Shown here piece by piece: positions 33,600 to 56,376 of a stretch of 64,000 bases of DNA. Below the pieces are notes generated by a model that saw only the letters and a program-made list of their open reading frames with translations, did not search any database and was not told the DNA's origin. The number at the start of each line of letters is the position of its first letter. The stretch's first letter is position 1. Source of the DNA: Chryseobacterium aureum. Lineage in GTDB: Bacteria > Bacteroidota > Bacteroidia > Flavobacteriales > Weeksellaceae. A program made the position numbers and the translations under genes. The DNA lies in NCBI RefSeq assembly GCF_003971235.1, contig NZ_CP034661.1, positions 1,612,001 through 1,676,000 on the forward strand, in the 5' to 3' direction.

Positions 33600-34255
33600 A
33601 TTTACCTGTTTTATTTTGTTGTATTTTTTTTAATCCAAAACAGATTTCTGTATTACATGCTCAAAAAGTCAGCTCTCTGGAATCTGATCACAGTTATTCA
33701 AGATCGACTGGAAATTAATCAATTTCAAAAAAGAAAGTTAATACGAATAAGTAATGGAGGGATTAGAAACTCTTTCTAGATCATCATTATTGAAAAAATA
33801 GAAAACGAGCTTACTCTTATAAACACAGGCATATAGACATCATAATTTTATTGAATTATGATTGAGTTCTTGAGAGGGCAAAAATACAAAAAATTTTAAA
33901 ATACTCATATTATCAAATTATAATGACATACAGTGTTTTTAAATCCTAAAGATAATAACACAGTAATAAAGAGATACTTTACCTAAAATAAAAAAACACT
34001 CAATCTTATATATTTTACTTTTTTTATGAATTTCGGAAACATATATTAATTATTCTTAAAATCTTCTATCTGTTTATTTATCAAAAAGATAGGAAAAATT
34101 CATAAATAATTTAAATTAAATCACAGTATATTGATTAATTTTACTTACATTAGCATATCCGTTTTATCAGATTGATAAAGGTAATTCTTACATTTCAGAA
34201 CATTATTCACTGTATATTATCTTTTTGTAATATAACCTAAAACAAATCTCTTGTT
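33600..34255. other. Long AT-rich intergenic region
   Basis: Spacer between the hydrolase gene and the lipid-synthase operon, made mostly of A/T tracts. I see no coding frame, RNA gene or strong hairpin. It is unusually long for this chromosome and may hold regulator sites for the operon. Confidence 0.45.
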
Positions 34256-34288
34256 TTTGAAATATTTTATTTTTTATTCTTATATTTG
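34256..34288 (+). promoter_or_regulatory. Candidate promoter of the lipid-synthase operon
   Basis: TTTG at 34256-34259 and TATATTTG at 34281-34288, 21 bases apart, match both Bacteroidetes elements (-33 TTTG and -7 TAnnTTTG) at allowed spacing. Transcription would start near 34295, leaving a leader of about 500 bases before the ATG at 34801. Confidence 0.6.
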
Positions 34289-34563
34289 CTTAACATTTTT
34301 TTAACAATAATTATTTATAGTTAAAATTACCAAGATTGTACCGCCTCATTTTCAGGAATAAGAAAACAATAAATATACTTTAATAACATTTGAACAATTG
34401 ATATTTTTATATTAATAAATCATTATCAAATTTCATTTATGATTAAAGATATATCATAGTTTTATTATTTTTATTTCCTCATAACTGCAATTCGCAATAT
34501 ATACCGATGGTATTTGTGTTTTGCTGTGAGACATCATATAACTACTCCAATACCGTGAATGCT

Positions 34564-34722
34564 ATGAAAAACTTGACTAAAATCAGGCTAATGCCTCTTG
34601 AAAAACCGGACAACACCTCCTTCTTCTGCAATCTATCCATATGCGACAGATCATTACATAATTATCATCGAAACACATATACGATTAACGATTTAGCAAA
34701 AACCAATTTTATTATATCGTAA
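34564..34722 (+). pseudogene. Diverged copy of the megasynthase start within the operon leader
   Basis: The ATG at 34564 opens a frame whose first 16 residues (MKNLTKIRLMPLEKPD) match the megasynthase N-terminus (MKNLTIIGLTPFEKPD) at 12 positions; after that the sequences differ. The DNA upstream is also loosely similar, including a GTAC(C/T)GCCTCATT element at 34338 and 34728. It is either the remnant of a duplicated or recombined 5' end or a translated leader peptide of about 52 codons. Confidence 0.5.
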
Positions 34723-34800
34723 CAGAAAGTACTGCCTCATTACCGAAAGGCTCTGCATTGTGTTACAAAACTCTTGTTATCATTCAATAATTATCACGCC

Positions 34801-37800
34801 ATGAAAAACTTAACCATTATTGGACTAACGCCTTTTGAAAAGCCAGACGTTAACCTTATCGCTAGACTGCATCATGCGGGTGCATTTCCCGTTCTAAGCC
34901 TAGGAAATGAGTTAACGGCAGCCCAGGAAGCGTTACATGAACTTGATCAGATAGAGGTACCATCGTATGGTATTTATTTTTCTAATGACAATTTTACCCC
35001 ACTTCAAATCCCGGAAAAAGTAAGATTCGCGATTCTTCCGTTCGGAATGCCAGCACCTTCCAATCTGCCTGCTGTATATCAGGTAAGCAGCGTGGAAGAA
35101 GCCAGAAAGGCAGAACAGTCAGGAGCAGAAGGAATCATTATTAAAGGAAATGAAGCAGGCGGGCGGGTAGGTTATGAATCCACGTTCGTATTATTCCAGC
35201 GTGTGATCAAAGAAATCCAGAGCATTCCGGTGTGGGTACAGGGAGGAATAGGTCTCCATACCGCAGCCGCATCTAAAGCATTGGGAGCAACAGGAATTGT
35301 ACTGGATAGCCAGCTGGCACTGTTTCCTGAAAGCTCTGTTCCTAAAGAACTGAAAGAAGTATGCTCAAAACTGAATGGTACAGAAACTAAGGTGATTGCT
35401 AACCATCGTGTATTGGTGAGACCCAACTCACCTGCACTTCCTGAAAATGCAACTGCTGAAGATCTGAAGCAATACTTCAACGGCCTGGACCTCAGTGCAT
35501 GTTATATCCCTATGGGGCAGGACATTTCACTGGCTGTAGACCTGTATGAAGACTTCAAGACCCTGAAAAGGCTGATTTTCGGATTTAAAGAAGCAATGTA
35601 TGGACATCTGAAACAGGCAAAAGCGCTTAAAGCTATTGATAAAAACAACGCTTTAGCAAAAGATCTGGGGCTGGATTATCCTATCGCCCAAGGTCCCATG
35701 ACCCGTGTAAGCGATGTTCCTTTATTTGCCAATGCCGTTGCCAATGCCGGAGCCTTACCTTTTGTTGCATTATCCTTATTAAAAGGAGAATCTGCAAAAT
35801 CTTTGGTAATGGAAACCAAAAACCTGGCAGGTGAAAAAACCTGGGGTGTAGGAATTTTAGGATTTGCCCCGCAGGAATTAAGAGATGAGCAGACCTCCTA
35901 TATATTGGAAGCAAAACCTCCTGTTGTTCTGATTGCCGGGGGCAGACCTTCGCAGGCCAAAGTATTTGAAAAAGCCGGAATAAAATCATTCTTACATGTT
36001 CCTTCCCCTGCCCTTCTGGATATTTTCCTGAAAGAAGGGGCTAAAAACTTCATTTTTGAAGGACGTGAATGCGGAGGCCACGTAGGCCCTCTTTCAAGTA
36101 CAGTTCTTTGGGAAAAACAAATTGAACGTATCTTGAAAGAAGACCACCCTGAAAATATCAGCGTCTTTTTTGCCGGAGGAATCCATGACGCATTTTCAAC
36201 CGCATTTGTTTCTATCATGACTGCACCCTTAGCAGCAAGAGGAGTAAAAATTGGTGTGTTGATGGGAACTGCCTATCTCTATACTCATGAAGCGGTGCAG
36301 ACAGGGGCTATTCAGGAAGAATTCCAGTCTCAGGCTATGCAGGCTAAAGATACCGTTTTACTGGAAACAGCTCCGGGACATGAAACCCGTTGTTTAAATA
36401 CAGCATTTGCCCACCACTTCAATACAGAAAAAGCAAAACTTCTGGCTGCAGGTATGGATAAGAAGCAGGTATGGGAACAGCTTGAAAAATTAAATGTCGG
36501 ACGCCTGCGTATTGCCGCTAAAGGAATAGAACGTCAGGGTGACAAGCTTGTCAACATTCCTAAAGATGACCAATTAGACTTAGGAATGTATATGATCGGA
36601 CAGATCGCTACGATGCAGAATCGGGTGATCTCTTTAGCCGCTCTGCATCAAAATGTTGTAGACAATGATAAGCACATCCAGAATGCAGTGTTGCCGGAAC
36701 AGCCAATTTCTGCGGAAAAGCCGCTGGACATCGCTATCGTAGGAATGGAGTGTATCTTCCCAGGTGCTAAAAATCTTGATGAGTACTGGAGAAATATCAT
36801 TCTGGGTAAAGACAGTGTTACTGAAGTACCGGATGAAAGATGGAATAAAGATCTTTATTACAAACCAGACTCCAATGAATCTGATGTATCACACTCCAAA
36901 TGGGGAGGATTTATTCCTAAAATTGATTTCGATCCATTGGCATTCGGTATTCCTCCACAATCTCTTGCTGCTATTGAACCCACTCAGCTGCTGACCTTAT
37001 TGGTAGCTAAGCGTGCGATGGAAGATGCCGGATATGGTGAAAAACACATCAACAGAGACAACATTTCTGTCATTATAGGTGCTGAAGGAGGTAATGATCT
37101 TGCCAACAGCTATAGTTTCAGAGGATATTATAAGCAGGTTTTCGGAGAACTTCACGAAGAAGTAAAAGAAGCTTTCCCACATACTACTGAAGATTCTTTC
37201 CCTGGTATCCTGGCGAATGTAATCGCAGGTAGAATTACCAACCGACTGGATCTTGGAGGTAGAAACTTTACAGTAGATGCAGCCTGTGCTTCTTCTTTGG
37301 CAGCCATCGATCTTGCCTGTCAGGAACTTGTATTAGGAAAATCGGATATGGTACTTGCAGGAGGTGCAGATTTACACAACGGAATCAATGATTACCTGAT
37401 GTTCTCCAGCACGCATGCTCTATCCAGAAAAGGAAGATGTGCTACATTCGATGGTGATGCAGACGGTATCGCTCTGGGAGAAGGTATTGCCATCCTTGTT
37501 TTAAAAAGATATGAGGATGCTATCCGTGATGGTGACAGAATTTATTCAGTAATCAAAGGAGTTGGAGGATCCAGTGACGGTAAAGCATTAGGATTAACGG
37601 CTCCTAGAAAAATAGGTCAGGTAAGAGCCTTAGAGCGTGCTTATTCCCAGGCTGGGATCAGTCCTGCTTCCGTTGGTCTTGTAGAAGCTCACGGTACAGG
37701 AACAGTAGTAGGTGACAAAACCGAATTAAGTGCTCTGACCAATTTATTCAGCCGTTCAGGAGCATTACCTGGACAGACGCATTTAGGTTCTGTAAAAACA

Positions 37801-40800
37801 CAGATCGGGCATACAAAATGTGCGGCAGGACTAGCTGGATTAATCAAAGCTTCCCTTGCGGTATATCACGGTGTAAAGCCGCCTACCCTTCATCTTCAGC
37901 AGCCTAATGCTTATTATAATGCTGAAACAAGTCCGTTTGCCTTCCATGCGGAAAGCGGATTGTGGGCAGAGAAAAACCGATATGCCGGAATCAGTGCTTT
38001 CGGGTTTGGAGGAACAAACTTTCATACAGTTATTGCCAACCACCCTAAGGAAGATAACTCCATTGCAATGCAGTCATGGCCTTCGGAATTGTTTGTTTTC
38101 CGTGGAGATACCTATGAAGAAGCTAAAGGACAGTCCAGCCAGATCAAGACCTTATTAGAAATTAACGATGGTATTCCATTAAAAGATATTGCTTACAGCT
38201 TAAGCATCAGCTCAGAAAAACCGATTCAGTTCAGCATCGTTGCAGACACCGCAGAAGACCTGATGATGAAGCTTGAACTGGTACTGCTAGGGATTGAGAC
38301 AAAAGATACTTTTACCGTGAATAAAAAAGAAGGTAAAGTAGCATTCACATTCCCTGGACAAGGCAGCCAGAGAATCAATATGGCTCGTGACTTATTTGTG
38401 GTTTTCCCGGCCATGCGTAAGATTATTGATGAGTATCCTGAACTTGAAAAAGTAGTTTTCCCATCTAAAACCTTTAATGAAGCTGACTTAAAACAGCAGA
38501 AGGAAATCATTAAAGATACCCGCCTGGCACAGCCGCTTTTAGGAATCGTAGATCTTGCACTGGCAAAATTCTTAGAATCATTGGGCATCATTCCTGATAT
38601 GCTGGCAGGTCACAGCTATGGTGAAATTCCGGCTTTATGCTTTGCAGGAGTATTTGGAGAAGATAAACTGGTTGACTTAAGTGTTAAGAGAGCTCAATCT
38701 ATCTTGGATTCAGTAGAAGGCGGAGATCCGGGTTCAATGTTGGCAGCAAGTGCTTCCGCAGAACGTTTACAACCTATTATTGCTAAAGTTGAAGAATGCT
38801 ATCCTGTGAATTTCAACGCTCCTACTCAATGTGTGATCGCTGGCAGTACAGAAGCCATCAATAAACTGCTGGAAGTCCTTAAACAGGAAGGTATTTCTGC
38901 TAAAAAACTGGAAGTTGCCTGTGCATTCCACAGTCCATTACTAGCGAAATCCAAAGGTTTATACGCTGAAGTCTTAAAAGATGTTCCTTTCCAGGAAATG
39001 CAGATTCCTGTTTGGTCTAATACCACTGCAGAAGTATATCCAACGAATCCATCAGAAATAAAAGAAAGACTTACTGATCATCTGGTACAGCCTGTAAGAT
39101 TTGTAGAACAGCTTCAGGCCATGTACAATGACGGTGCAAGAATATTCATCGAAGTAGGACCAGGAAAAGTTCTTACCGGGCTTACCAAATCCTGCCTGGA
39201 AAAAGATCAGCTCACCTTATATGTAGAAGACAACAGCCGTAATAAATTCAGCCATCTGCTTTGTATGCTGGCTCAATATCTAGGAACAGGCAGAAGCTTC
39301 AATATTGATCAGCTTTTCAATGGCAGAAGTGTTACGATTATTGATCTAAACCAACCTGAGCTTTACAAGAAAAGCCCTGCTATCTGGCGTGTTAACGGGC
39401 AAACTGCCCACCCAACTACCGGTAATCTGCCAGCCAATGGTGCATTGCCACTTATAAACCCCATTCCCATGAACAACTTTACTAACAATCCACAGGCACC
39501 TGCAACCGAAGCTCAGTCTACTGCTGAACGTATGCTGCAGGAATATTTAAACAGTATGAAATTAATGATACAGGCACAGCGCGATGTGATGCTTTCCTTT
39601 ATGGGACAGAATCCTCAGGCGTTCCCTGCTCCTGTGTACCATTCACCGCAACCAGCTGCTGCCCATCAGCCCATTCCTGCCATTCCGGTACAGCCTGTTC
39701 AGCAGGAAAGACCGGTAGCTGTTGCTGCTGTAAAGCAAGCACCTTCAAGAGATATCAAATCCTTATTATTACAGGTGGTAAGTGACAAAACAGGATATCC
39801 TCAGGAAATGCTGGGTATGGAAATGGATCTGGAAGCGGATTTAAGTATAGATTCTATTAAAAGAGTAGAAATCATCGGAACACTTCGTACCGAGCTGGGA
39901 AGCATGGGTAACGGAAACACCAGTGAAGATACCGTTATGGAGCAATTGGCAGGAATAAAAACCTTAAGTGGTCTCGTTTCATGGCTTACTGAATTCTCAG
40001 GAACTGAAACGACTACTGCCCCTGAAAAAAAAGCATCAACAGCTGAACCAGCGGGTTCAAAACCGCAAGCTCAGCCGGTATTTTCTCTTGAAGATCTTCA
40101 AAACGCGATTCTGAATATCGTCAGTGAAAAAACCGGATATCCCAAAGAAATGTTAGGTCTTGATCTGGATCTGGAAGCAGATTTAAGTATAGACTCCATC
40201 AAACGTATGGAAATCATCGGTGATCTTAAAACTAAGATCGGATTTGGCCAGAACCTGGAGCAGGCAGATGATGTGATGGAAAAACTGGCTGCCATTAAAA
40301 CACTTCGTGGTCTGGCAAGCTGGATCAGCGAAATGAATAGTGACCCCAATGAAACCAGCACGGAAACCAAAGAAAGCAATACAGCAGGGCCCACTCAAAA
40401 CATACTTTCACGTCTTCGTTTTGATATCACACCTACTGATGCTTCTTTAGTACAAAATACAGAAGTATTGCTGGGTAAACGTTTTGCCATTACACAAGAT
40501 GACAGCAAACAAACCTCAGCCATCAAAGACGCATTAGAAAAGCATGGAGCTATTGTAGAGTTAATAGATACTGAAAAAGATCTTTCCAATATTGACGGAT
40601 TAATTATGTTAGACCTATTCTCTGCTGCTGACAAACCAAGCATCATCGATCACGTAGATCTGATCAAAAAACTGGATTTTGATAAAGCAAAATGGGTATA
40701 CCTGATCTCAGATATTCCGGCTCACCTTCAGGAAATCACAGAGGTAAGCGTACTGCGTCATCATCAGGGATATCCGGGACTTTTCAAAAGTTTAGCCCGA

Positions 40801-41826
40801 GAATTTGACAATACAACCTGTAGATTAATCAGCCTGAGCACCCCTCAGGAAGTAGATCAGATTGCTGAAATTACTTTAAAAGAGATCCTTACCAATGATA
40901 AACCTGCTGAAGTTATTTATAAAAATAATCAGAGACACCAGGTAGACATTATCCCGTCTCCATTGTCAACAAGTCTGAATAAAGCCCATATCCAGTTAGA
41001 TCAGAAATCCGTGGTACTGGTACTTGGAGGAGCACAGGGAATCACAGCTGAGCTGGTAAAACATATGTCTCAGGCTTATCCTTGTACGTATATTCTGGTA
41101 GGAAGATCAGCTGACCCAAGAAATGAGATTTCTGCCAAAGACTTTCAGCGCATGAAAACCAAAGAAGAAATCAGAAGTTTCTTAATTAAATCCGGACAAT
41201 TCAATTCTCCGGCAGAAATAGAAAAGGAAACGACAAAAATTTTCAAAAACAATCAGATCCTACGTACCATCCGGGATATGGAAAGCCTTGGAAACACCAT
41301 CATTTACCAATCACTGGATCTTTGTGACGAGGAAGGCTTAAGCAATCTGATCAGCAATATCTATGAAAAATACGACCGCCTGGATGGGGTCATCCACGGA
41401 GCAGGTCTTTTAGAAGATAAATTATTCAAACAAAAGACAACAAGCTCTTTCGGACGCGTATTCGATACCAAAGTGAAACCACTTCGTGTATTGGCGGAAC
41501 AGCTTCGTGAAGACTGCCAGTTTGTAGTATTATTTTCAAGTATTGCGTCAGTATATGGTAACAAAGGACAGACGGATTATGCTGCGGCCAACAGTGTACT
41601 GGATGACTACGCTAATGCCTTAAACAAAAGATTAAAAGGAAAAGTAATCTCCATCAACTGGGGACCATGGAAAGGTGCCGGAATGGTTTCTTCCACCCTT
41701 GAATCAGAATATGAACGCAGAGGAATTTCTATGATTCCATTGGATGAAGGGAAAGAAATCTTCCTCAACGAGATCAAATACGGAACGGAAAGCCAGGTGC
41801 TGATCATGTCTGGAAATAATTGGTAA
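34801..41826 (+). CDS. Megasynthase: NMO-like/PfaD-like - KS - AT - ACP - ACP - KR
   Basis: 2341 residues from the ATG at 34801; the longer frame begins only with TTG. Domains in order: a first nitronate-monooxygenase-like half (1-275) whose EAGGH motif reads EAGGR (Arg122); a second PfaD-like enoyl-reductase half (280-610) with intact ECGGH (His427); ketosynthase (640-1090) with Cys829, His964, His1004; acyltransferase (1180-1480) with GHSYGE Ser1272; a Pro/Gln-rich linker; two ACPs with LSIDSIKR, phosphopantetheine sites Ser1685 and Ser1799; ketoreductase (2070-2340) with a Tyr near 2260. Twin ACPs plus PfaD are the hallmarks of PUFA and heterocyst-glycolipid synthases, so it should build a long reduced or hydroxylated acyl chain iteratively. 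It starts an eight-gene operon. Confidence 0.9.
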   Translation: MKNLTIIGLTPFEKPDVNLIARLHHAGAFPVLSLGNELTAAQEALHELDQIEVPSYGIYFSNDNFTPLQIPEKVRFAILPFGMPAPSNLPAVYQVSSVEEARKAEQSGAEGIIIKGNEAGGRVGYESTFVLFQRVIKEIQSIPVWVQGGIGLHTAAASKALGATGIVLDSQLALFPESSVPKELKEVCSKLNGTETKVIANHRVLVRPNSPALPENATAEDLKQYFNGLDLSACYIPMGQDISLAVDLYEDFKTLKRLIFGFKEAMYGHLKQAKALKAIDKNNALAKDLGLDYPIAQGPMTRVSDVPLFANAVANAGALPFVALSLLKGESAKSLVMETKNLAGEKTWGVGILGFAPQELRDEQTSYILEAKPPVVLIAGGRPSQAKVFEKAGIKSFLHVPSPALLDIFLKEGAKNFIFEGRECGGHVGPLSSTVLWEKQIERILKEDHPENISVFFAGGIHDAFSTAFVSIMTAPLAARGVKIGVLMGTAYLYTHEAVQTGAIQEEFQSQAMQAKDTVLLETAPGHETRCLNTAFAHHFNTEKAKLLAAGMDKKQVWEQLEKLNVGRLRIAAKGIERQGDKLVNIPKDDQLDLGMYMIGQIATMQNRVISLAALHQNVVDNDKHIQNAVLPEQPISAEKPLDIAIVGMECIFPGAKNLDEYWRNIILGKDSVTEVPDERWNKDLYYKPDSNESDVSHSKWGGFIPKIDFDPLAFGIPPQSLAAIEPTQLLTLLVAKRAMEDAGYGEKHINRDNISVIIGAEGGNDLANSYSFRGYYKQVFGELHEEVKEAFPHTTEDSFPGILANVIAGRITNRLDLGGRNFTVDAACASSLAAIDLACQELVLGKSDMVLAGGADLHNGINDYLMFSSTHALSRKGRCATFDGDADGIALGEGIAILVLKRYEDAIRDGDRIYSVIKGVGGSSDGKALGLTAPRKIGQVRALERAYSQAGISPASVGLVEAHGTGTVVGDKTELSALTNLFSRSGALPGQTHLGSVKTQIGHTKCAAGLAGLIKASLAVYHGVKPPTLHLQQPNAYYNAETSPFAFHAESGLWAEKNRYAGISAFGFGGTNFHTVIANHPKEDNSIAMQSWPSELFVFRGDTYEEAKGQSSQIKTLLEINDGIPLKDIAYSLSISSEKPIQFSIVADTAEDLMMKLELVLLGIETKDTFTVNKKEGKVAFTFPGQGSQRINMARDLFVVFPAMRKIIDEYPELEKVVFPSKTFNEADLKQQKEIIKDTRLAQPLLGIVDLALAKFLESLGIIPDMLAGHSYGEIPALCFAGVFGEDKLVDLSVKRAQSILDSVEGGDPGSMLAASASAERLQPIIAKVEECYPVNFNAPTQCVIAGSTEAINKLLEVLKQEGISAKKLEVACAFHSPLLAKSKGLYAEVLKDVPFQEMQIPVWSNTTAEVYPTNPSEIKERLTDHLVQPVRFVEQLQAMYNDGARIFIEVGPGKVLTGLTKSCLEKDQLTLYVEDNSRNKFSHLLCMLAQYLGTGRSFNIDQLFNGRSVTIIDLNQPELYKKSPAIWRVNGQTAHPTTGNLPANGALPLINPIPMNNFTNNPQAPATEAQSTAERMLQEYLNSMKLMIQAQRDVMLSFMGQNPQAFPAPVYHSPQPAAAHQPIPAIPVQPVQQERPVAVAAVKQAPSRDIKSLLLQVVSDKTGYPQEMLGMEMDLEADLSIDSIKRVEIIGTLRTELGSMGNGNTSEDTVMEQLAGIKTLSGLVSWLTEFSGTETTTAPEKKASTAEPAGSKPQAQPVFSLEDLQNAILNIVSEKTGYPKEMLGLDLDLEADLSIDSIKRMEIIGDLKTKIGFGQNLEQADDVMEKLAAIKTLRGLASWISEMNSDPNETSTETKESNTAGPTQNILSRLRFDITPTDASLVQNTEVLLGKRFAITQDDSKQTSAIKDALEKHGAIVELIDTEKDLSNIDGLIMLDLFSAADKPSIIDHVDLIKKLDFDKAKWVYLISDIPAHLQEITEVSVLRHHQGYPGLFKSLAREFDNTTCRLISLSTPQEVDQIAEITLKEILTNDKPAEVIYKNNQRHQVDIIPSPLSTSLNKAHIQLDQKSVVLVLGGAQGITAELVKHMSQAYPCTYILVGRSADPRNEISAKDFQRMKTKEEIRSFLIKSGQFNSPAEIEKETTKIFKNNQILRTIRDMESLGNTIIYQSLDLCDEEGLSNLISNIYEKYDRLDGVIHGAGLLEDKLFKQKTTSSFGRVFDTKVKPLRVLAEQLREDCQFVVLFSSIASVYGNKGQTDYAAANSVLDDYANALNKRLKGKVISINWGPWKGAGMVSSTLESEYERRGISMIPLDEGKEIFLNEIKYGTESQVLIMSGNNW

Positions 41827-41845
41827 ACCGCTGTAGAAAATCAAT

Positions 41846-44800: not shown

Positions 44801-46096
44801 GAAATTGCAGAAGCGGAAATTCCGGGAACAGAGGTGCATAAAATCATGAACGTAAGCGTATTCCAATGGATGAACGTAGCTAAACCTTTCGAAAAAACCG
44901 TAAAGGGAGAATGGCGTGGAAACAACCATGCCTACCTGGATATTGAAAATTTTGCGAATGCAGAAGTGATCTTAAAATCATCTCCTGTTCCTACGCCGGA
45001 ATTCAATCTTTCCATCGGTAATCTTCTTCCTATCGAAAGAACACCTGAAGAAATCTATGACATGCACATGTTCCATGGAGAAAAATACCAGGGAATTACT
45101 GAAGTTTCAGCTGTTGGAGACAAAGGAATTATCGGAAAAATAAAAGGGAACGGCGGTAAAGGCTCTTTGCTTGATAATGCAGGACAGCTGTTCGGACTTT
45201 GGCTGCAGCTTACTTTGGTGAAAGACCGTATTGCATTCCCTGTGAAAATCAGAGATATTGAATTCTTTGGTGATATGCATGATCAGGAAGGTATTTTTGA
45301 ATGCACCTGTATGCTGACCGAGCTTAATGATGAATTTGCCATTGCAGACATTATCCTGAAAAGAGACGGGAAAATATGGTGTGCCATTACAGGCTGGCAG
45401 AACAGGAGGCTGGAAATTGATGCCCCTTTATGGAATGTTTCCATGTCACCACTGCACAACAGGCTTTCGGAAGAGATTGCCCCTGAAGTATTTTTCTTCC
45501 ATCAGGCGTATACCAGAGTCGCTTCATGGGATTTTATCCTGAAAAGATACTTCAATCAGACAGAAAAACAGCATCACCAGCAGTTATTACCCAACAAAAA
45601 GAAAAACTGGATGGTAAGCCGTGTGGCCGTGAAAGATGCCGTAAGAAATCTTCTTCGCCAGGAAAAAAATATTGCCTGCTTCCCGATCACGTTTGAAATC
45701 CGTTCCGATGAAGTGGGAAAACCTTATCTCATCAGTGATTTTACAGAAGACATTCATATTTCACTGGCTCATAAAGACAAAGAAGCCGTAGGAATCGCGA
45801 GATATGGAAAATCTGTAGGAATTGATATGGAACTGATGGAAGAACGCAGTTCAGGATTCTACGACATGGTATTTACCGACAAAGAATTAACCCTATTAAA
45901 AGACAGAGATCAGGCAGAATGGACCACCCGATTCTGGGTCGCTAAAGAAGCTTACGGAAAGTTTCTGGGAACCGGACTGAAAGGAAATCCTAAAGCCTTC
46001 GAAGTCGAAATGATAAAAGATGATCACCTGTGGATCAACAATATTGAAATCAAAACTATTAAACATAAAAATTATATTATCGGATGGACACTGTAA
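41846..46096 (+). CDS. Second synthase: KS - AT-like - DH with fused phosphopantetheinyl transferase
   Basis: 1416 residues. Ketosynthase 1-450 with full triad Cys207 (DAACASAL), His342, His381; acyltransferase-like 530-830 with GHSLGE Ser605; hot-dog dehydratase 940-1210 (SHPYLIDHSLL with His950/His956, and an Asp in LLDNAGQLFG); C-terminal 4'-phosphopantetheinyl transferase about 1240-1416 with VGIDME (Asp1327) and WVAKEA (Trp1364, Lys1367, Glu1368). It has no ACP of its own, so it must work on the twin ACPs of the upstream protein or the free ACP downstream. The PPTase would activate these carriers, making the operon self-sufficient. It starts 19 bases after the first synthase. Confidence 0.9.
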   Translation: MKKTDVAVIGLSCVFPGAQDANTFWQNIVNKVDSTGPVPADRIDPVHFTDATSPVDRFYCQRGGFIPDYTFDPTTFGILPLAVEGTEPDHLLTLDLVQKALEDAGVFQKNSSLEKTGIIIGKGNYTGPGATRAIEIVRTGEQISALLQELLPHVSSSDIEKVKHAFQERKGRFAADTAMGLIPNLVASLVANRFNLGGAAFTVDAACASALIAVDHAVQELQRGRSDIMIAGGVHTGQNAAFWSIFAQLGAMSRQQQIKPFSMDADGLLIGEGCGFVVLKRLEDAVRDQDKIYAVIKGVGVSSDGNGTSVMSPSVKGQLKALEQAWINADLDKNTVGYLEAHGTGTPLGDKTELQTLAQFFGKEETVPVAGIGSVKSNIGHAMPAAGIAGLIKTCLALHHDTLPPTLYCENPTSEMQNTRFEPVQEAKNWSKTGLPKVAAVNAFGFGGINAHVVLEGYDMPKKDQVLILARPTHEELLSALHNHETAIGDGDFRVAIFDPTPARIEKAIKIVSKNITWKNKQDIWYTSAPLLKDGGKIAFVFPGLDGLAKGEVETVSRYFGLTSPIETEGEGLLTDALNIFNTCSILDNSLKKLGIIPDMNAGHSLGEWLAGYSSELAEANSVKALIDVLNPETFELKDSKFIAIGAGIEVIKPFIAEISNLYVSNDNCPNQVILCGSNAALDELVPLLKAKQVFHQVLPFQSGFHSPFIADKLDVILAGMEKAQFQQTKIPLWSATTLEPYPSDQAAIRKLSAEHLVQPVRFRELTDTLYEEGARVFIQVGTGGLIGFIDDTLKGKAFSTIASSVPTRSALAQLQRVVASLFVEGKTIALDFLEIQNHSKRASGKGIKLELGSPIIRNFKEAKVLAQSFDTPKQYTAASAIVAKSGHPLVQAFQDNVADMIRMQEEVLTLFQNRPEITIQRPAPVTHAAPKPVRSTTFSKDLYVTLESHPYLIDHSLLRQPKGWAHVADMEPVIPMTMIFEQLAEIAEAEIPGTEVHKIMNVSVFQWMNVAKPFEKTVKGEWRGNNHAYLDIENFANAEVILKSSPVPTPEFNLSIGNLLPIERTPEEIYDMHMFHGEKYQGITEVSAVGDKGIIGKIKGNGGKGSLLDNAGQLFGLWLQLTLVKDRIAFPVKIRDIEFFGDMHDQEGIFECTCMLTELNDEFAIADIILKRDGKIWCAITGWQNRRLEIDAPLWNVSMSPLHNRLSEEIAPEVFFFHQAYTRVASWDFILKRYFNQTEKQHHQQLLPNKKKNWMVSRVAVKDAVRNLLRQEKNIACFPITFEIRSDEVGKPYLISDFTEDIHISLAHKDKEAVGIARYGKSVGIDMELMEERSSGFYDMVFTDKELTLLKDRDQAEWTTRFWVAKEAYGKFLGTGLKGNPKAFEVEMIKDDHLWINNIEIKTIKHKNYIIGWTL

Positions 46097-46383
46097 ACGC
46101 AACATTAAAAATGAACCACGAAGAACTTTTTACTTTATTAAAAGGTTTTATAACTGAAGTGATAGGTGCTGAATTTGTAGAAGAGATGGATATTACTCCT
46201 CAAAGTTCATTCACCAGAGATCTTGAAATGGACAGCATTGAGATTGTCTCTTTCTCAGAAAAGATCAAAGCGCATTTTGGCGATCAGATCGACTTTACAG
46301 GCTGGTTATCTTCTATGGATCTTGACCAGCTGATTAATCTTGACCTTAGTATGATCATCAATTATATCTACGAATGCCAATAA
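46084..46383 (+). CDS. Acyl carrier protein
   Basis: 99 residues (or 90 from the ATG at 46111). Acidic four-helix carrier with EMDSIEIV; Ser51 is the phosphopantetheine site. The start overlaps the end of the synthase, and the stop overlaps the start of the hydrolase by 10 bases, so all three are translationally coupled. A free ACP beside a two-synthase system could hand the finished chain to the hydrolase or the acyltransferases. Confidence 0.88.
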   Translation: MDTVNATLKMNHEELFTLLKGFITEVIGAEFVEEMDITPQSSFTRDLEMDSIEIVSFSEKIKAHFGDQIDFTGWLSSMDLDQLINLDLSMIINYIYECQ

Positions 46384-47156
46384 TCACTGTCAATAACAGA
46401 CAAGTTCATATACAGGAACTCAACAAAGGAGCCGAACATACCGTGGTACTTATCCACGGGATGTTCAGCAACCTGTCCATTTATTATTTTAATATTGCCC
46501 CTGTGCTGGCAAAGCATTTCCATGTGGTGATGTATGATCTGAAAAGCCACGGTATGAGTGAACGCTTTCCGGATGGGTACGATCTTGACAATATGTCATC
46601 CGATTTAATAGGTTTAATAGATCACCTTCAACTGGAAAAAGTACATCTTGCAGGCTACAGCTTCGGAGGGCTTATAGCGTTGAAAACAGCTTTGGAATAC
46701 CCGGACCGAATACATCAGCTCGTGGTGATAGAAGCACCTGATCCTCAGGACGAAAAAGCCCGAAACATCATTGATGAGTACAGCAAAGAATTTCTAGAGC
46801 ATTATGTAGCCAATTTTACCGATACCACCAAAGTACAGATGGGCAAAAGACAAATGGAAAAGAACCACCGTATGTATGAATTTCTGTTTAACGAAACGAC
46901 CATCAAAGCAGACATGATCCGGGAGAAACATTTCCTGGGGGAAACCGACTTCAGCAAACTGACGGCTCCCACTCTGTTGCTTTATGGCGCTGATTCCAAC
47001 TGCAGACCTACCGGTGAGTGGCTGCAATCTCAAATCAGCCAGTCTGAACTTGAATTAATTCCGGGTGATCACAATATTCCTATCCAGGAACCTCAGCGCA
47101 TTGCTGAAACGATTGCTCAATTTTTATCTAAAATTTTAACACAAAACCATGGCTAA
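46374..47156 (+). CDS. Alpha/beta hydrolase, possible chain-releasing thioesterase
   Basis: 260 residues, no signal peptide. HGMFSN oxyanion turn, nucleophile elbow GYSFGG (Ser96), acid in LYGADSN, and catalytic His in GDHNIPI. Its place directly after the ACP and before glycosyl- and acyltransferases makes thioester release or transfer of the polyketide chain the likely role. Many alpha/beta hydrolases look alike, so an esterase acting on the final product cannot be excluded. Overlaps the neighbours at both ends. Confidence 0.82.
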   Translation: MPIITVNNRQVHIQELNKGAEHTVVLIHGMFSNLSIYYFNIAPVLAKHFHVVMYDLKSHGMSERFPDGYDLDNMSSDLIGLIDHLQLEKVHLAGYSFGGLIALKTALEYPDRIHQLVVIEAPDPQDEKARNIIDEYSKEFLEHYVANFTDTTKVQMGKRQMEKNHRMYEFLFNETTIKADMIREKHFLGETDFSKLTAPTLLLYGADSNCRPTGEWLQSQISQSELELIPGDHNIPIQEPQRIAETIAQFLSKILTQNHG

Positions 47157-49551
47157 ATTTGCATTTATAGTTCCACCACTCACAGGACATGTCAACCCTA
47201 CCCTAAGCATCGGTGCTGCGCTGCTGAAAAGAGGACATGAAGTAGCCTGGATCAGCCTTGACCCTACTTTAGAGGCTAAACTTCCCGAGGGAGGAAAATT
47301 ATTGCTGATCCAGTATGATCAGACCGACGAAGAAAAGAAAGAAAGTGAACAGTATCTTGATATTATTTCTAAGAAAGTAGTGTATGGTATAGACAGCGTG
47401 AAGTTCCTTTACGAAGAGGTTCTTATTCCGCTGAACAGACATTGCTATAACGGTATTGTTTCATTGTTAAAAATAGAGCAGCCTGATTTGATTATCGGGG
47501 ACCATCAGTTATTTGCAGCTCCTGTTGCCGCAAAAGCGCTTGGAATTCCTTATGCAACTTCCGTTACCGCTCCGGCCGCCATTAAAATCATGAATGAACT
47601 GCCAAAAGTACACGAATGGGAAGTGAATCAGATTATAGACTTACAAAAAGAACTCGGTTTCCAGGAAGAACGCTCCCTGGCGACTTCAGAACTTTTGACC
47701 CTGGTTCTGACCTCCAATTATTTCTTTGGTGAAATGGATGATCTGCCTGCTCAATATCAGTTCACAGGGCCTGTTCTTACCGAAAGACGCGTTTCATGCG
47801 AATTCGACTGGGATAGACTCAAAAGCAATGACAACAAAAAAATCCTGGTAAGCATTGGAACCACCTTCGATCATGATCATAAAAAAGCGTTCTTCCAGAA
47901 GGTCATTGATGCCTTTAAAGATGAAAACTTAACCGTTGTCGTGGTGTCTGATCCACAGCTTTTCGAGCAGTGGCCGGATAATTTTATGGTGTACCAGCAG
48001 GTTCCTCAATTAGATCTTTTACCTCATCTTGACGGTGTGGTATGCCATGGCGGTCACAATACCGTATCCGAAACCTTATCCCATGGCATTCCTTTGGTAG
48101 TGATCCCGATTGCCTATGACCAGTCGCATGTTGCAGGACGTGTTGTGCGCACAGAAGCGGGTGAGCGTCTTAATTTTAACCGATTTAAAGCCCATCACCT
48201 GAAAGAAGCTGTAGAAAATATTTTAACCAATCCAGCTTACCGTGAAGCTGCTCAGAAAGTGGGACAGTCTTTTGTGGAAGCCGGAGGTTCAGCCACCGCA
48301 GCCCGTTTATTGGAACAGGCTTTATCAACATCTTCAAAACCTGAAAAACCGTCTAAATTTTTATTTGTAGTTCCACCGTTTTTCGGACATGTAAGCCCTA
48401 CTTTAAGTGTTGGAGCAAGTTTAATTGCACGCGGCCATGAAGTAAAATGGTTCGGAATTACCCCTTTAGACAGTAAACATATTCCTGAAGGAGGTTCTTA
48501 TTTCTATCCTGAAGAAGATCTTGTTCCGTATCAGCAAGAAATTGCCCGCATTCTAAAAAGACAGGATGACGGCCCGGCATGTTCGGGACCTGAAGTGATG
48601 AAACTCGCACTGGAAGAAACCTATGTGCCTTTCGCAAAAATGATGATGCCGGGATTAACGAGACTGACTGAGACCTGGATGCCGGATGTGATTGTGAATG
48701 ACTGCATCTCTTTCGGAGGCGCTCTTTTCGCCCACAAACACAATATCCCCTGCGTAACGACCACTCCGGTTCCACCGGATGTGATGGGAGATACGGAAAA
48801 AAGTGCCCCAAAAATCTGGGAATGGCAGCAAAACCTGATCAAAGACCTGCAAAAAGAAGTAGGCATTCATGAAGAAGGAATTTATATTCATTCTCACAAA
48901 CTGAATATGGTATTTACCTCACAGGCATTCGCCGGTTTTGAAACCGTTCCGCCTCATATGAAATTCGTAGGTCCGGTAAAAGGCCGCCCGAACGATGCCC
49001 CATTTGACTGGGATAAACTGAATGCCTCCACCACTCCAAAGATATTCGTGTCATTGGGAACCCTTTTGGTAGATATCAGAAAAGCTTTTTTCGAAAAAAT
49101 TATTGCAGCATTTAAAGACCAGCCGGTTACAGTGATTGCCGCTACTCCACCGGAAATCTTTGAAGAATGGCCTGAGAATTTTATTGTCAACAGCTTTGTT
49201 CCCCAATCTGCGGTGATGCAGCAAATGGACATGGTGATCTGCCATGGAGGTTTCAATACCGTAAACGATACTTTCCGTAACGGATTACCAATGCTGATCA
49301 CGCCCATCGCTTATGATCATTTCCATATTGCAAAACTGATCGAGCAGGCAGGCTGCGGGATCAGCATCCGATACAAAAGACTGCGTGTAGACGCTCTTCG
49401 TGAAACCGTTTTTGAATTGCTGAAAAACCCAAAATACGGAACCGCAGCTCAGGAAGTAAGCAATACATTCACTCTTGCCGGAGGGAATGATAAAGCGGTA
49501 GAACTGTTGGAGAACTTTGTACAGGAACATTCAACATTCGCTTCTGTATAA
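47149..49551 (+). CDS. Tandem GT1-family glycosyltransferase (two fused copies)
   Basis: 800 residues made of two homologous MGT/UGT-like enzymes, 1-395 and 402-800. Each starts with the same pattern (FIVPPLTGHVNPTLS and FVVPPFFGHVSPTLS) and ends with a sugar-nucleotide-binding signature (VVCHGGHNT...ETLSHG and VICHGGFNT...DTFRNG). GT1 enzymes of this type glycosylate lipids, carotenoids and polyketides. Both halves keep the HGG motif, so two sugars may be added. The ATG overlaps the preceding stop by 8 bases. Confidence 0.88.
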   Translation: MAKFAFIVPPLTGHVNPTLSIGAALLKRGHEVAWISLDPTLEAKLPEGGKLLLIQYDQTDEEKKESEQYLDIISKKVVYGIDSVKFLYEEVLIPLNRHCYNGIVSLLKIEQPDLIIGDHQLFAAPVAAKALGIPYATSVTAPAAIKIMNELPKVHEWEVNQIIDLQKELGFQEERSLATSELLTLVLTSNYFFGEMDDLPAQYQFTGPVLTERRVSCEFDWDRLKSNDNKKILVSIGTTFDHDHKKAFFQKVIDAFKDENLTVVVVSDPQLFEQWPDNFMVYQQVPQLDLLPHLDGVVCHGGHNTVSETLSHGIPLVVIPIAYDQSHVAGRVVRTEAGERLNFNRFKAHHLKEAVENILTNPAYREAAQKVGQSFVEAGGSATAARLLEQALSTSSKPEKPSKFLFVVPPFFGHVSPTLSVGASLIARGHEVKWFGITPLDSKHIPEGGSYFYPEEDLVPYQQEIARILKRQDDGPACSGPEVMKLALEETYVPFAKMMMPGLTRLTETWMPDVIVNDCISFGGALFAHKHNIPCVTTTPVPPDVMGDTEKSAPKIWEWQQNLIKDLQKEVGIHEEGIYIHSHKLNMVFTSQAFAGFETVPPHMKFVGPVKGRPNDAPFDWDKLNASTTPKIFVSLGTLLVDIRKAFFEKIIAAFKDQPVTVIAATPPEIFEEWPENFIVNSFVPQSAVMQQMDMVICHGGFNTVNDTFRNGLPMLITPIAYDHFHIAKLIEQAGCGISIRYKRLRVDALRETVFELLKNPKYGTAAQEVSNTFTLAGGNDKAVELLENFVQEHSTFASV

Positions 49552-49569
49552 GCCTTTAAATACCTGCCT

Positions 49570-50841
49570 ATGAAAAGAAGATTGTTATTTGGTGAGCGTA
49601 TGTTGCTGGGGGACGGAACGGAACCCTTCAACGCAGTTATTGCATTCAGACTGAGAGGTTCTTTTACATTAAAAGAGATCCAGCATGCACTGGCTCAGAT
49701 TCAGAATAAACATCCGTGGCTGAGAGCACTGATCAGCCACGATGAGAAAAATATACCCTGGTATACTGTTCCTGAACAGCCTGTATCCATTCCTGTAAGG
49801 ATATTGACCCGACAGGGAGAAGATCAGTGGCAGGAAGAATCCAGAAGAGAATGGAATACACCGTTCAGTTATGAAAAATTACCCCTGATAAGATTCGTTT
49901 GGATCAAAGGGGAAAACGTTTCTGACATGCTGTTTGCATTCCACCATTGTCTTTGCGATGGCGGCTCTGCAATGGCTTTTTTAAAAGAGTTTTTAGCAGT
50001 ACTGGACAATCCGGCAGCCGAAATCGGGAAAGAAAATCCGATATTGGGAATTCAGGATGTAGTTCCGGCTCATATTCTGAACAGCCGGAGGCAGAGAATG
50101 AAAGCAAAACTGATCGGGAGGCTGGCTGCTACAGCAATCAAATGGATTCCGGTAGGTAAAAAAGCTATAGAAAGACAGAATGACTACCTGATCCACTGGA
50201 AACTGGATGAAACGGTGAGCAAAGAATTAATTGCTTACTGCAAATCTCAGGGAGTAACTGTAAATACCTTCTTGAGTGCGGCAGTATTGCAGGCCTTTAA
50301 AAAAGTGAGAGATGAGAAATCCTTCAACAAAGTTTCCTGTCCGGTAGATATCAGGCGTTTTGCCAATCAAATCAAGGAAGATCATATTTTCGCTTTCGGG
50401 CTGATGATTGTGGTTTCTTCTGATGAAAAACTGAGTTTTTCAGACAACCTTCGTGCGATGCAGAAATCGGTGGAACAAAAGACCTCAAAACTGAATCCTT
50501 ATATTACGATGATGGTGATGGAATCCGGACATGATGCGCTGAAGAATTTCACCAGGCTTTTAAAGAACGGAAAATCATCCAACGACTGTATGTTTTCCAA
50601 TCTGGGACGTATTCAGATTCCTCATCAGTATAAGGCTTTCAGTGTAGATACTATTTTCAGCCCTACAGTCATCGGACCGTTGGGAAATACCACTACGATG
50701 GTGACCTCTACCTACCGTGGTGAAATGGATTTTTCATTCATGGGAAGCGAAGGCTATTTACCTTACACTGATGCATTGGCCGTCCGAGATGAGGTAATGC
50801 AAACAATTCATTCACAATTAAAACAAGTCGCAGTATCATGA
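49570..50841 (+). CDS. Condensation-fold acyltransferase 1 (PapA/WES-like)
   Basis: 423 residues. Condensation-domain fold with the complete HHxxxDG motif (HHCLCDG, His125, His126, Asp130). Such stand-alone enzymes (PapA5-type and wax-ester/DGAT-type) move an acyl chain from a carrier protein or CoA to a hydroxyl group. Next to an ACP, a synthase and a glycosyltransferase, it likely esterifies the sugar or lipid hydroxyl. It starts 18 bases after the glycosyltransferase and its stop overlaps the next start. Confidence 0.85.
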   Translation: MKRRLLFGERMLLGDGTEPFNAVIAFRLRGSFTLKEIQHALAQIQNKHPWLRALISHDEKNIPWYTVPEQPVSIPVRILTRQGEDQWQEESRREWNTPFSYEKLPLIRFVWIKGENVSDMLFAFHHCLCDGGSAMAFLKEFLAVLDNPAAEIGKENPILGIQDVVPAHILNSRRQRMKAKLIGRLAATAIKWIPVGKKAIERQNDYLIHWKLDETVSKELIAYCKSQGVTVNTFLSAAVLQAFKKVRDEKSFNKVSCPVDIRRFANQIKEDHIFAFGLMIVVSSDEKLSFSDNLRAMQKSVEQKTSKLNPYITMMVMESGHDALKNFTRLLKNGKSSNDCMFSNLGRIQIPHQYKAFSVDTIFSPTVIGPLGNTTTMVTSTYRGEMDFSFMGSEGYLPYTDALAVRDEVMQTIHSQLKQVAVS

Positions 50842-52091
50842 TCAGACGACCTTTAATGATGGTGGAAAGGATCATGTATGTAGATCCGGAAACGCCTTTA
50901 AACTGTGTGTATACTGCCAGGATCAGCGGGCAGATTACTGAGGAAAACTTTACAACGGCCTTAGTGAAAATCCAGCAGAAACATCCTTTGCTGAGAGCGG
51001 TTATTGATCATAAAATCGGGCGTTATCCCTATTTTACAGGACAGAAAGATATTGAACCTATTCCGCTTCGTATTGTAGAACGAAAGGCAGAAGACGACTG
51101 GTTCAGGGAATCTGAAAGAGCGTGGTTTCAGCTTTTCGAAGAACCCAGAAAACCACTTGCTGAGGTCGTATGGGTGAAAGGAGAGAACGTTTCCGAAATC
51201 CTTTGGGTAATGCCGCACTGCATTTCGGACGGAACCACGGGAGTGACATTAATGCGCGAACTTTTAAGTTTACTGGACAATCCTTATGCTCCATTAATCC
51301 CTTACGTAGCTTTTGAATCTGTGGATGATTTCCTGCCTTCAGATTTTAATGCAGGAATTAAAAAATATAAGGCCAGCCTTTATCTGCTGTTTGCAAAGCT
51401 CTTCTTCTCTATCCAGCGAAAAAGTAAAAAGAGAAACGTTGGAAACAACTATGCCATCCACTGGAAGATGACTCCAGAAGACACCAAACTGATCACTGAA
51501 AAATGTAAGGCCAACGGAATCTCCGTCCATGCATTGCTGTGTTCTGCTGTGATGCAGGCGTTCCGTGATGTACAGGGAGACCGTGCCAAAGGTAAGGTGA
51601 TCAGTCCGGTAGATGTGCGTCATTTTATTCCGGAAATTAAGGAAGATCATCTGTTTGCTTTTGCTCCCACGGTAGAACTCTCCATCAAAAAAGGGAGTAA
51701 AGATGTGATGGCTAACGCTAAGCAGATCAAAAAAGACCTTACGGAGAAAATCAATAAGATGGAAGCCCGTGAACTCCTGTGGATGGGAGAACATATGCAC
51801 CCTGTTGCAGAACGCATGATCCATATGCTGAAATCCAGTGAGGGCGGTCATGATATCACCTTATCCAATATGGGAAAAGTGAATATCCCGAATGATTATA
51901 AAAACTTCAAACTGGAAACCGTGATCAGTCCTACCGTGGCTTTTCCATGGCTGAACTCGAACACCTTGGTGACCAGTACGTACAACCAGCAAATGGACTT
52001 TACCTTCATGTCCAATGAAAACTTTCTTCCCAAAAAAGAAGCCTATCTGATAAAAGATAAAGCCATTGAGCTATTGACCACCTCTCTATGA
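50838..52091 (+). CDS. Condensation-fold acyltransferase 2 with altered first His
   Basis: 417 residues, homologous to the preceding protein (shared layout HPLLRAVIDH, KGENVSEILW, LSLLDNP, SNMGKVNIP). The active-site motif reads PHCISDG: the first His of HHxxxDG is Pro126, while catalytic His127 and Asp131 remain. It could be active with altered substrate positioning. A pair of paralogous acyltransferases suggests two acylations or a heteromeric enzyme. ATGA overlap with the previous gene. Confidence 0.82.
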   Translation: MIRRPLMMVERIMYVDPETPLNCVYTARISGQITEENFTTALVKIQQKHPLLRAVIDHKIGRYPYFTGQKDIEPIPLRIVERKAEDDWFRESERAWFQLFEEPRKPLAEVVWVKGENVSEILWVMPHCISDGTTGVTLMRELLSLLDNPYAPLIPYVAFESVDDFLPSDFNAGIKKYKASLYLLFAKLFFSIQRKSKKRNVGNNYAIHWKMTPEDTKLITEKCKANGISVHALLCSAVMQAFRDVQGDRAKGKVISPVDVRHFIPEIKEDHLFAFAPTVELSIKKGSKDVMANAKQIKKDLTEKINKMEARELLWMGEHMHPVAERMIHMLKSSEGGHDITLSNMGKVNIPNDYKNFKLETVISPTVAFPWLNSNTLVTSTYNQQMDFTFMSNENFLPKKEAYLIKDKAIELLTTSL

Positions 52092-52636
52092 AATTGAAAA
52101 TAAAGCCGCCCAAGCCAAAACCCATCAAAAAAACCACCCTCAGACGCTTTCTCATCAAGCGTACAATTTACTATGTCCTCCCGAATGTATTTTTTAATTT
52201 CATCATTGCGTATGCCAGCTTCAAAGAGTTAGGCTACACGCATTTTTTCTCAGGAACCCAAAACCTGGCCCGTCTTACCCTACCGATGGCTATCTTCCTT
52301 CCGGTAGTCCTTACCATTGATATCATCAAAAGAGTAACCGATGCCGCCAGCCAGGAAGCCATAGAATTTACCGTAGACGAGCAACTGAATATTAAAAAAT
52401 TAATGATCAAGCTCAGCATTCTACATGGCTTAATTACAGGTTCATTAGTACTCTCCCTACTCTTTATAGGACAATATAATTTTTCAAAGGATTATAAACT
52501 GGATGCTACGGCAATGGCTGTGGTAGTGGGTGTGCTGGCCGGGATTTTGTCTGTGGTGTTTGTGTATCTGCCGGTGTGGAGGTTGAGGAGATGGATGTGT
52601 AGGAAGGTGAATTTAGTTAATTTAGACACTCAATAA
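52088..52636 (+). CDS. Membrane protein, last gene of the lipid-synthase operon
   Basis: 182 residues. A basic proline-rich start (KIKPPKPKPIKKTTLRR) is followed by four predicted membrane segments (about 28-47, 65-85, 115-132, 142-165) and a basic end. Start overlaps the previous stop (ATGA), so it belongs to the operon. Family not recognised. It could anchor the acyl- and glycosyltransferases at the inner membrane or help move the product. Confidence 0.7.
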   Translation: MKLKIKPPKPKPIKKTTLRRFLIKRTIYYVLPNVFFNFIIAYASFKELGYTHFFSGTQNLARLTLPMAIFLPVVLTIDIIKRVTDAASQEAIEFTVDEQLNIKKLMIKLSILHGLITGSLVLSLLFIGQYNFSKDYKLDATAMAVVVGVLAGILSVVFVYLPVWRLRRWMCRKVNLVNLDTQ

Positions 52637-52784: not shown

Positions 52785-52985
52785 ATGGAAATAAATATTG
52801 CAAAATTGCTTAGAGATACTCGTGTGAAGCATAATCTTACACAAGAACAACTTGCTCAAAAAGTAGGGAAGAAAAGAAGTTATATTTCAAGAATTGAAAG
52901 TGAAGAAGGTAATAATATAAAAATTAAAACCCTTATTGAAATTGTCGAAAAGGGATTTGGTGGAAATATTAAAATTGAATTTTAA
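52785..52985 (+). CDS. XRE-family controller protein of the type I R-M operon
   Basis: 66 residues, almost entirely a Cro/C1-type helix-turn-helix (LTQEQLAQKVGKKRSYISRIE). Size and place before hsdM fit a controller protein that delays restriction until the host is methylated. HipB-like proteins look similar, but no HipA follows. The stop is 5 bases before hsdM. It probably binds the inverted repeat at 52748-52777 and controls its own operon. Confidence 0.88.
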   Translation: MEINIAKLLRDTRVKHNLTQEQLAQKVGKKRSYISRIESEEGNNIKIKTLIEIVEKGFGGNIKIEF

Positions 52986-52990
52986 ATAAT

Positions 52991-56373: not shown

Positions 56374-56376
56374 CGG

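Follow-up and report, generated by a model that had tools for sequence, protein, structure and literature searches.

In this study, we have analyzed a 64,000-nucleotide (nt) stretch of Chryseobacterium aureum DNA (GCF_003971235.1, NZ_CP034661.1), referred to here as the window, and found in it an operon of eight codirectional genes on the + strand (34801-52636) that carries a complete candidate set of lipid synthase and tailoring enzymes. We propose, with a confidence that is evenly balanced, that a two-protein long-chain synthase resembling the Ars and Pfa systems would make a chain that is then capped with sugar and acylated, giving an acylated glycolipid. The cluster is most suitably classed as a new variant among the secondary lipid synthases, rather than as a polyunsaturated fatty acid (PUFA) system. 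An earlier reading of the window, referred to here as the original prediction, had described a coupled eight-gene operon; this description held, since all eight genes lie on one strand and five of the seven junctions overlap (by 13, 10, 8, 4, and 4 nt), the remaining two being gaps of 19 and 18 nt. The domain order, the intact catalytic motifs, the conservation, and the co-inheritance of the genes were observed directly.

Relatives of the operon were taken from one genome scan (the best 80 of 115 candidate places), which gave 69 loci; these belong to Chryseobacterium, apart from three in Pedobacter, one in Sphingobacterium, and one in a record labelled Flavobacterium seoulense. A search of relatives for the same gene order had been suggested, and all eight open reading frames (ORFs) are present at at least 85% of the length in the window in 62 of the 69 loci. 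The seven exceptions are a locus at a contig end (L048), three with a split ORF5 (L085, L086, and L092), and three with short or broken frames (L052, L095, and L105). The motif positions of both ketosynthases (KS1 and KS2), both acyltransferases (AT1 and AT2), the acyl carrier protein (ACP), ketoreductase (KR), dehydratase (DH), and phosphopantetheinyl transferase (PPTase) domains, the hydrolase Ser and His, the glycosyltransferases (GTs), and the tailoring acyltransferases are invariant in 66 to 69 sequences; the exceptions are positions in the first barrel of ORF1 (barrel1), the P1a Gly of the PPTase, and a tentative acid residue of ORF4, which is Asp in 43 of 69 sequences. The ratio of nonsynonymous to synonymous substitution rates (dN/dS), calculated from 17 close sequences, was lowest for GTb (0.019) and highest for a linker (0.118) among all parts of the operon. 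Because of this range and of the conservation in 69 loci, a chance cluster is excluded; a decayed or chance cluster was likewise rejected on the purifying selection that acts on every part.

A match to the N terminus of ORF1 was obtained in 105 of 173 Chryseobacterium genomes (in one of the 105 as frameshifted pieces) and in none of the other 68; a few of these genomes are incomplete. ORF7 was present in 93 of the 296 genomes of a family sample, with all carriers in one of 33 genera; among the 149 genus genomes covered by both searches, 93 had both markers and 56 had neither. In a phylum sample of 395 genomes, DH-PPTase was matched over its full length in 4, the 89 other matching genomes being matched at the PPTase end only. 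The flanking genes vary between species, and a glutaminase gene lies in the fetched flanks (some of them short) of 34 of 69 sequences, namely, the window and 68 loci (33 upstream and one downstream). In a quick tree without bootstrap, ORF2 of the record labelled F. seoulense was nested within Chryseobacterium. The view that an operon with its own PPTase is portable is borne out by the varying neighbors, by this nested copy, and by a related core on Streptomyces plasmids. It is concluded that these genes form a real and conserved set that is under selection and can be transferred. As a separate observation, the operon of the F. seoulense-labelled record is followed immediately by two tRNA-Tyr genes (L067, 20803-21165).

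The domain set described in the original prediction is present in the order given; however, the N-terminal portion of ORF1, labelled NMO-PfaD, is in fact two homologous FabK/PfaD/NMO barrels, the first degenerate, and the DH of ORF2 is of the PS-DH type. In barrel2, His427 aligns with the GGH motif of FabK, whose His we take to be the active-site residue. The matching position of barrel1 is L, Q, W, K, R, or S in 66 of 68 rows (Leu in 44), with a single His and a single gap, and is R in Streptomyces, Q in Beijerinckia, and R in Methylosinus; since the same loss is found in these three relatives, it looks ancestral. The barrel1 model was modest (mean pLDDT, 68; TM of about 0.5 to FabK), with FabK giving the top Foldseek matches (E of about 1e-8), and dN/dS was 0.096 for barrel1 versus 0.036 for barrel2. 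A second working enoyl reductase (ER) of the FabK kind was rejected for barrel1 on the residues at the His position, and the domain is probably a structural pseudo-reductase. By its motif, AT1 is presumably of the malonyl type.

Both KS domains retain the Cys-His-His triad, and in ORF2 the KS2 Cys is present in 69 of 69 sequences and the domain is followed by an AT. A reading of ORF2 as a protein with a KS and a chain length factor (CLF) was rejected on this retained Cys; two Persicobacter CLFs, included as a control, have Glu in the KS Cys column. The PS-DH family PF14765 matched the DH region in eight of eight ORF2 family members, the window copy scoring 23.6 bits versus a cut-off of 23.7, and no FabA-type DH family was listed for ORF2 in the domain search. 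The DHs of PfaC are FabA-type. In a search of the DH sequence against the PDB, the best relevant match was PksJ (E = 0.12), and the top row (E = 0.062) was an unrelated regulator. Within the PPTase, the P0 motif is absent, P1a is present, P1b' is present, and P1b is absent, each in 69 of 69 sequences; the P1a Gly, found in 66 of 69, is one of the few motif positions that are not invariant. The 13-nt overlap of ORF2 and ORF3 is maintained in all 67 loci scored.

ORF5 contains two MGT-type GT1 domains (TIGR01426, a broad MGT family), and in three of three Pedobacter loci its halves are two separate genes of 400 to 404 amino acids (aa) each (L085, 13586-16005; L086, 15285-17701; L092, 15277-17700). 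The best PDB sequence match of both ORF6 and ORF7, over most of their length, was PapA5 (8s6l; entry name, phthiocerol/phthiodiolone dimycocerosyl transferase), and the P-H of the ORF7 P-H-xxx-DG motif is identical at the matching place in the 8s6l chain. The [H/P]HxxxDG motif and the near-full-length similarity point to PapA5-type acyltransferases, with acyl transfer as the predicted function; dN/dS was 0.084 for ORF6 and 0.090 for ORF7. A third PapA5-like, ORF6-like gene stands between ORF6 and ORF7 in three loci (L071, 18990-20468; L072, 18964-20274; L080, 18988-20313). The sugar and acyl additions that had been predicted are therefore supported, at the level of sequence, by a pair of GT1 domains and a pair of condensation-fold acyltransferases, with motifs intact. 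No Pfam or NCBIfam family was above cut-off for ORF8; its AlphaFold2 model (mean pLDDT, 74) has four helices, and a fold search gave no match at E <= 0.001.

A search of plasmid records with KS1 gave 1,294 matching records, of which only two exceeded 60% identity, both from Streptomyces (NBC_00984 and NBC_01243). These clusters are ordered PKS1 (a polyketide synthase [PKS]), KS-AT-DH-PPTase, ACP, alpha/beta hydrolase, GT, and S-adenosylmethionine (SAM) methyltransferase, so that five core genes stand in the same order as in Chryseobacterium. Unlike the Chryseobacterium operon, with its two ACPs in the synthase and two GT domains, they have one GT domain and one ACP found in PKS1, and the PapA5-like genes and ORF8 are replaced by a SAM methyltransferase, with no condensation-fold acyltransferase. 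Identity to the window was 33% for barrel1, 50% for barrel2, 62% for KS1, 49% for KS2, 30% for the DH, 34% for the PPTase, 24% for the ACP, 31% for the hydrolase, and 33% for the GT. Relatives of the second Streptomyces protein numbered 1,153 at E <= 0.001 among 7,993 proteins scored, and the named ones among the best 120 were from Streptomyces or other Actinobacteria. IS3-type transposase genes were observed on both sides of one Streptomyces cluster (L136) and on one side of the other (L137).

The Ars (Type P) comparison was made against proteins of Beijerinckia, which has been classed as Type P (PMC3098273), and Methylosinus. In the Beijerinckia cluster, a tandem-barrel PKS is accompanied by two type III PKSs (chalcone-synthase type) and by a separate protein with PS-DH and PPTase; the Methylosinus cluster is laid out alike but contains a single type III PKS. 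Common to these clusters and the operon are the tandem barrels, the first without His, and the KS-AT-ACPs-KR order (identity to Beijerinckia, 49.6% for the KS and 50% for barrel2); furthermore, their ArsD-like PS-DH and PPTase protein is homologous to the end of ORF2. Whereas Ars-type clusters have type III PKSs, Chryseobacterium has an active KS-AT fused to DH-PPTase, followed by sugar and acyl tailoring genes, and no type III PKS was found in the eight ORFs or in the seven neighboring ORFs scanned. ArsA makes C23 to C25 chains, and ArsD is a PPTase (PMC4824345). In the ArsD-like proteins of Beijerinckia and Methylosinus, PS-DH is above the Pfam cut-off ahead of the PPTase (L138, 21042-22931; L140, 18761-20455); these proteins suggest a candidate location for the DH of the alkylresorcinol chain.

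The KS tree had 28 rows, the PfaA rows being assigned by TIGR02813 score or by a following KS-CLF. KS1 grouped with Streptomyces (support, 99/97), and the two then joined a Rhodobacteraceae KS and the Ars-type pair (91/89 and 92/84). PfaA formed a separate clade of seven rows (100/100), with KS1 outside it; the tree did not place KS1 with PfaA, one of the comparisons that had been suggested.

We postulate that the PPTase of ORF2 primes the ACPs and that KS1, AT1, KR, and the barrel2 ER of ORF1, together with the DH of ORF2, would produce a long, largely reduced chain, like ArsA. A long hydroxylated chain had been envisaged originally; however, the presence of KR, DH, and an ER domain that is intact makes a reduced chain no less likely. 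KS2-AT2, which is fused to the part (DH-PPTase) that adjoins type III PKSs in Ars-type clusters, would carry out one more condensation that leaves an oxygen function, with the free ACP as a possible carrier. The ORF4 hydrolase would release or edit the chain, the GT1 domains of ORF5 would attach one or two sugars, ORF6 and ORF7 would esterify hydroxyls of the sugar or the chain, and ORF8 may help membrane placement. The steps from the PPTase to glycosylation would form a core shared with Streptomyces, which has one GT domain, and acylation by ORF6 and ORF7 would be a lineage-specific add-on, because Streptomyces retains a GT without the acyltransferases. Our best reading is a glycosylated long-chain core with an exchangeable tail module, the tail predicted for Bacteroidota contributing acyl groups and one more sugar; the chain, the sugars, and the acyl groups are all deduced from the genes. 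More tentatively, and somewhat short of an even call, we envision a cross-phylum family of sugar-capped lipids defined by an Ars-like synthase, a second active KS-AT that has replaced the type III PKS, a core GT, an exchangeable tail, and an ancestral pseudo-reductase, barrel1.

Several observations weigh against the acylated glycolipid proposal. ORF1 scored 1,056 bits as a whole protein against the PfaA model TIGR02813, versus a cut-off of 1,010.1, its best single piece reaching 707, and the KS2 group (86/86) grouped weakly with the PfaC KS (83/84, with long branches). The role given to KS2-AT2 is a guess, and the GT1 and condensation-fold sequences do not reveal acceptors or sugars. Neither a sugar-nucleotide gene nor a recognizable export gene was found within the eight-gene operon. 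The two Streptomyces clusters count as one case, because they are nearly identical (99.6% in DH-PPTase), and the orthology of their ACP, hydrolase, and GT rests on gene order, since identity is just 24 to 33%. In the open-licence literature searched, no assigned product was found for this synthase or cluster. The original prediction, which recognized no named product, stands to that extent; however, the class had been listed in 2011 as Type N, and a region that fits the Chryseobacterium herbae copy carries an hglE-KS antiSMASH label.

The strongest alternative, although an unlikely one, is that the synthase chain is an acyl donor only, so that the GT1s glycosylate another aglycone, such as a carotenoid or lipid alcohol, and the PapA5-like enzymes acylate the glycoside, as in carotenoid glycoside esters. 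The broad MGT family of ORF5 and the PapA5 likeness of ORF6 and ORF7 would suit this arrangement, and PapA5 accepts chains straight from a PKS. The antiSMASH region of Chryseobacterium herbae, labelled hglE-KS/T1PKS/terpene with no similar known cluster (PMC10459008), includes a terpene call, and its coordinates fit an operon copy (L058) if "region 2" denotes contig 2; however, the 25 window ORFs scanned gave no listed match to a carotenoid or terpene family, and the Streptomyces clusters retain a GT beside the synthase without any condensation-fold acyltransferase. Less probable again is a polyunsaturated or polyhydroxylated very-long-chain glycolipid made by the PUFA or heterocyst route. The parallel drawn originally with these synthases holds for the twin ACPs and the PfaD-type barrel, and the PfaA score of the whole ORF1 protein and the hglE-KS label in C. 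herbae, as given in the account of that region, also point this way; it fails in that KS2 has Cys where the Persicobacter CLFs have Glu, so that there is no CLF, in that the DH is a PS-DH with no FabA-type match listed, and in that KS1 falls closer to the Ars type and not within the PfaA clade. The least probable of the three is a phenolic or pyrone lipid glycoside, in which KS2-AT2 takes over from the type III PKS and makes an aromatic head, which would be given sugar and acyl groups like that of the mycobacterial phenolic glycolipids. It is favored by the resemblance of ORF1 and the DH-PPTase half of ORF2 to Beijerinckia and Methylosinus Ars-type proteins and by the fusion of KS2 to that half; against it, the domain search of the eight ORFs listed no family of cyclases, aromatases, or type III PKSs, and KS2 differs from a type III enzyme in its attachment to an AT and a DH.

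The features of the operon are collected in Table 1. ORF1 is taken to start at ATG 34801, with an alternative TTG at 34774. The operon start given in the original prediction, 34256, coincides with the TTTG box of a predicted promoter whose two boxes, TTTG and TATATTTG, are both identical across the window and 13 close loci; we assume the Bacteroidetes-type consensus, and promoter function at 34254-34288 is predicted from it. Between the promoter and ORF1 lies a leader of about 510 nt (34289-34800), long stretches of which are conserved among close loci and which gave no match in Rfam. Judged by residue similarity, the start of a 52-codon leader ORF is a diverged partial duplication of the ORF1 start; a recognizable copy occurs in 31 of 67 loci examined, and dN/dS, calculated from 17 sequences selected because they contain the 52-codon frame, was 0.37 overall and 0.12 for codons 1 to 16. 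G+C content was 43.0% for the operon versus 38.1% for the window. Downstream of the operon (52785-59649) are a 66-aa HTH_3 protein and then type I restriction-modification M, S, and R genes; on the minus strand, a series of large proteins of secreted type, bearing PKD, SprB, or fn3 domains and type IX secretion tails, is encoded at 2323-31127.

Table 1. Features of the C. aureum operon and its upstream region (window coordinates)
Feature	Position	Strand	Basis
Bacteroidetes-type promoter (predicted)	34254-34288	+	TTTG 34256-34259, TATATTTG 34281-34288
52-codon leader ORF between promoter and ORF1	34564-34722	+	First 16 residues resemble ORF1 start
ORF1, long-chain synthase, barrel1-barrel2(ER)-KS-AT-ACP-ACP-KR	34801-41826	+	Pfam/NCBIfam domains
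ORF1 barrel1, FabK/PfaD-like, without active-site His	34801-35655	+	Foldseek FabK matches; motif alignment
ORF1 barrel2, FabK/PfaD-like enoyl reductase, His427 kept	35656-36720	+	FabK 7l00, E 1.4e-18; His 68/68
ORF1 KS1, Cys-His-His intact	36733-38058	+	Domain search, motif alignment, KS tree
ORF1 AT1, Ser/His/Arg intact	38344-39201	+	Domain search, motif alignment
ORF1 two tandem ACP domains	39733-40350	+	Attachment Ser 68/68 in each
ORF1 KR, Ser-Tyr-Asn intact	41011-41673	+	Domain search, motif alignment
ORF2, KS-AT-DH-PPTase	41846-46096	+	Pfam/NCBIfam domains; PS-DH by family search
ORF2 PS-DH-type dehydratase, His956/Asp1110 invariant	44678-45550	+	PF14765; residues 69/69
ORF2 PPTase domain	45551-46093	+	PF01648; motifs in 69/69
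ORF3, free ACP	46084-46383	+	Pfam/NCBIfam; attachment Ser 68/68
ORF4, alpha/beta hydrolase	46374-47156	+	Pfam/NCBIfam; Ser and His 69/69
ORF5, two fused GT1 glycosyltransferases	47149-49551	+	TIGR01426; both active-site His 66/66
ORF6, PapA5-like condensation-fold acyltransferase, HHxxxDG	49570-50841	+	8s6l, E 6.8e-19; motif 69/69
ORF7, PapA5-like condensation-fold acyltransferase, PHxxxDG	50838-52091	+	8s6l, E 1.3e-21; motif 68/68
ORF8, small hydrophobic, probably membrane protein, four predicted helices	52088-52636	+	AlphaFold2 model

Only a handful of secondary lipid synthase products have been identified, according to a 2026 paper (PMC13291983), and a term search found the word Chryseobacterium in the main text of neither that paper nor PMC11804610. 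The 105 carrier and 68 candidate noncarrier Chryseobacterium genomes offer a natural lipid comparison, by which a product unassigned since 2011 would become directly testable. From the Streptomyces version, a division of the molecule into core and lineage-specific parts can be predicted. Three glycolipids were reported from C. herbae by thin-layer chromatography (PMC10459008), a nonspecific result for a carrier of the operon, and a similar antiSMASH label has been given in Sphingobacterium thalpophilum (PMC11446778).

Among the closest known systems is the Type N secondary lipid synthase, listed for Chryseobacterium gleum and Chitinophaga pinensis without a product (Shulse and Allen 2011, PMC3098273). 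The likeness lies in the genus, in the tandem ACPs of the pfaA homologue, and in the PPTase motifs, for which all four published statements (PMC3098273) agree with 69 of 69 sequences. The match is one of description only, and the Type N account in that paper makes no mention of a GT, a PapA5-like pair, a hydrolase, or a membrane protein. HglC has a KS-CLF-AT layout (PMC3098273), and ORF2 differs from it in having no CLF, the single feature by which kinship with heterocyst glycolipid synthases was judged. With PfaA-D and HglE-C the operon shares KS-AT-ACPs-KR and a PfaD-type reductase; unlike PfaA-D, it has no CLF, a PS-DH dehydratase, tandem barrels fused N-terminally, and a KS1 outside the PfaA clade. 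Mycobacteria make acyl glycolipids with PKS and PapA-type enzymes, namely, phenolic glycolipid, sulfolipid, and trehalose polyphleates. The operon resembles these pathways in its logic, which combines a PKS chain with GT enzymes and esterification of the PapA type; however, the synthase architecture is different, and neither an MmpL-like transporter nor a FadD-like ligase was listed for the eight ORFs. If the cross-phylum family is real, the PapA5-type pair would make the Bacteroidota operon a Gram-negative counterpart of the PKS-built acyl glycolipid systems of mycobacteria, with a methyltransferase as the corresponding tail in Streptomyces.

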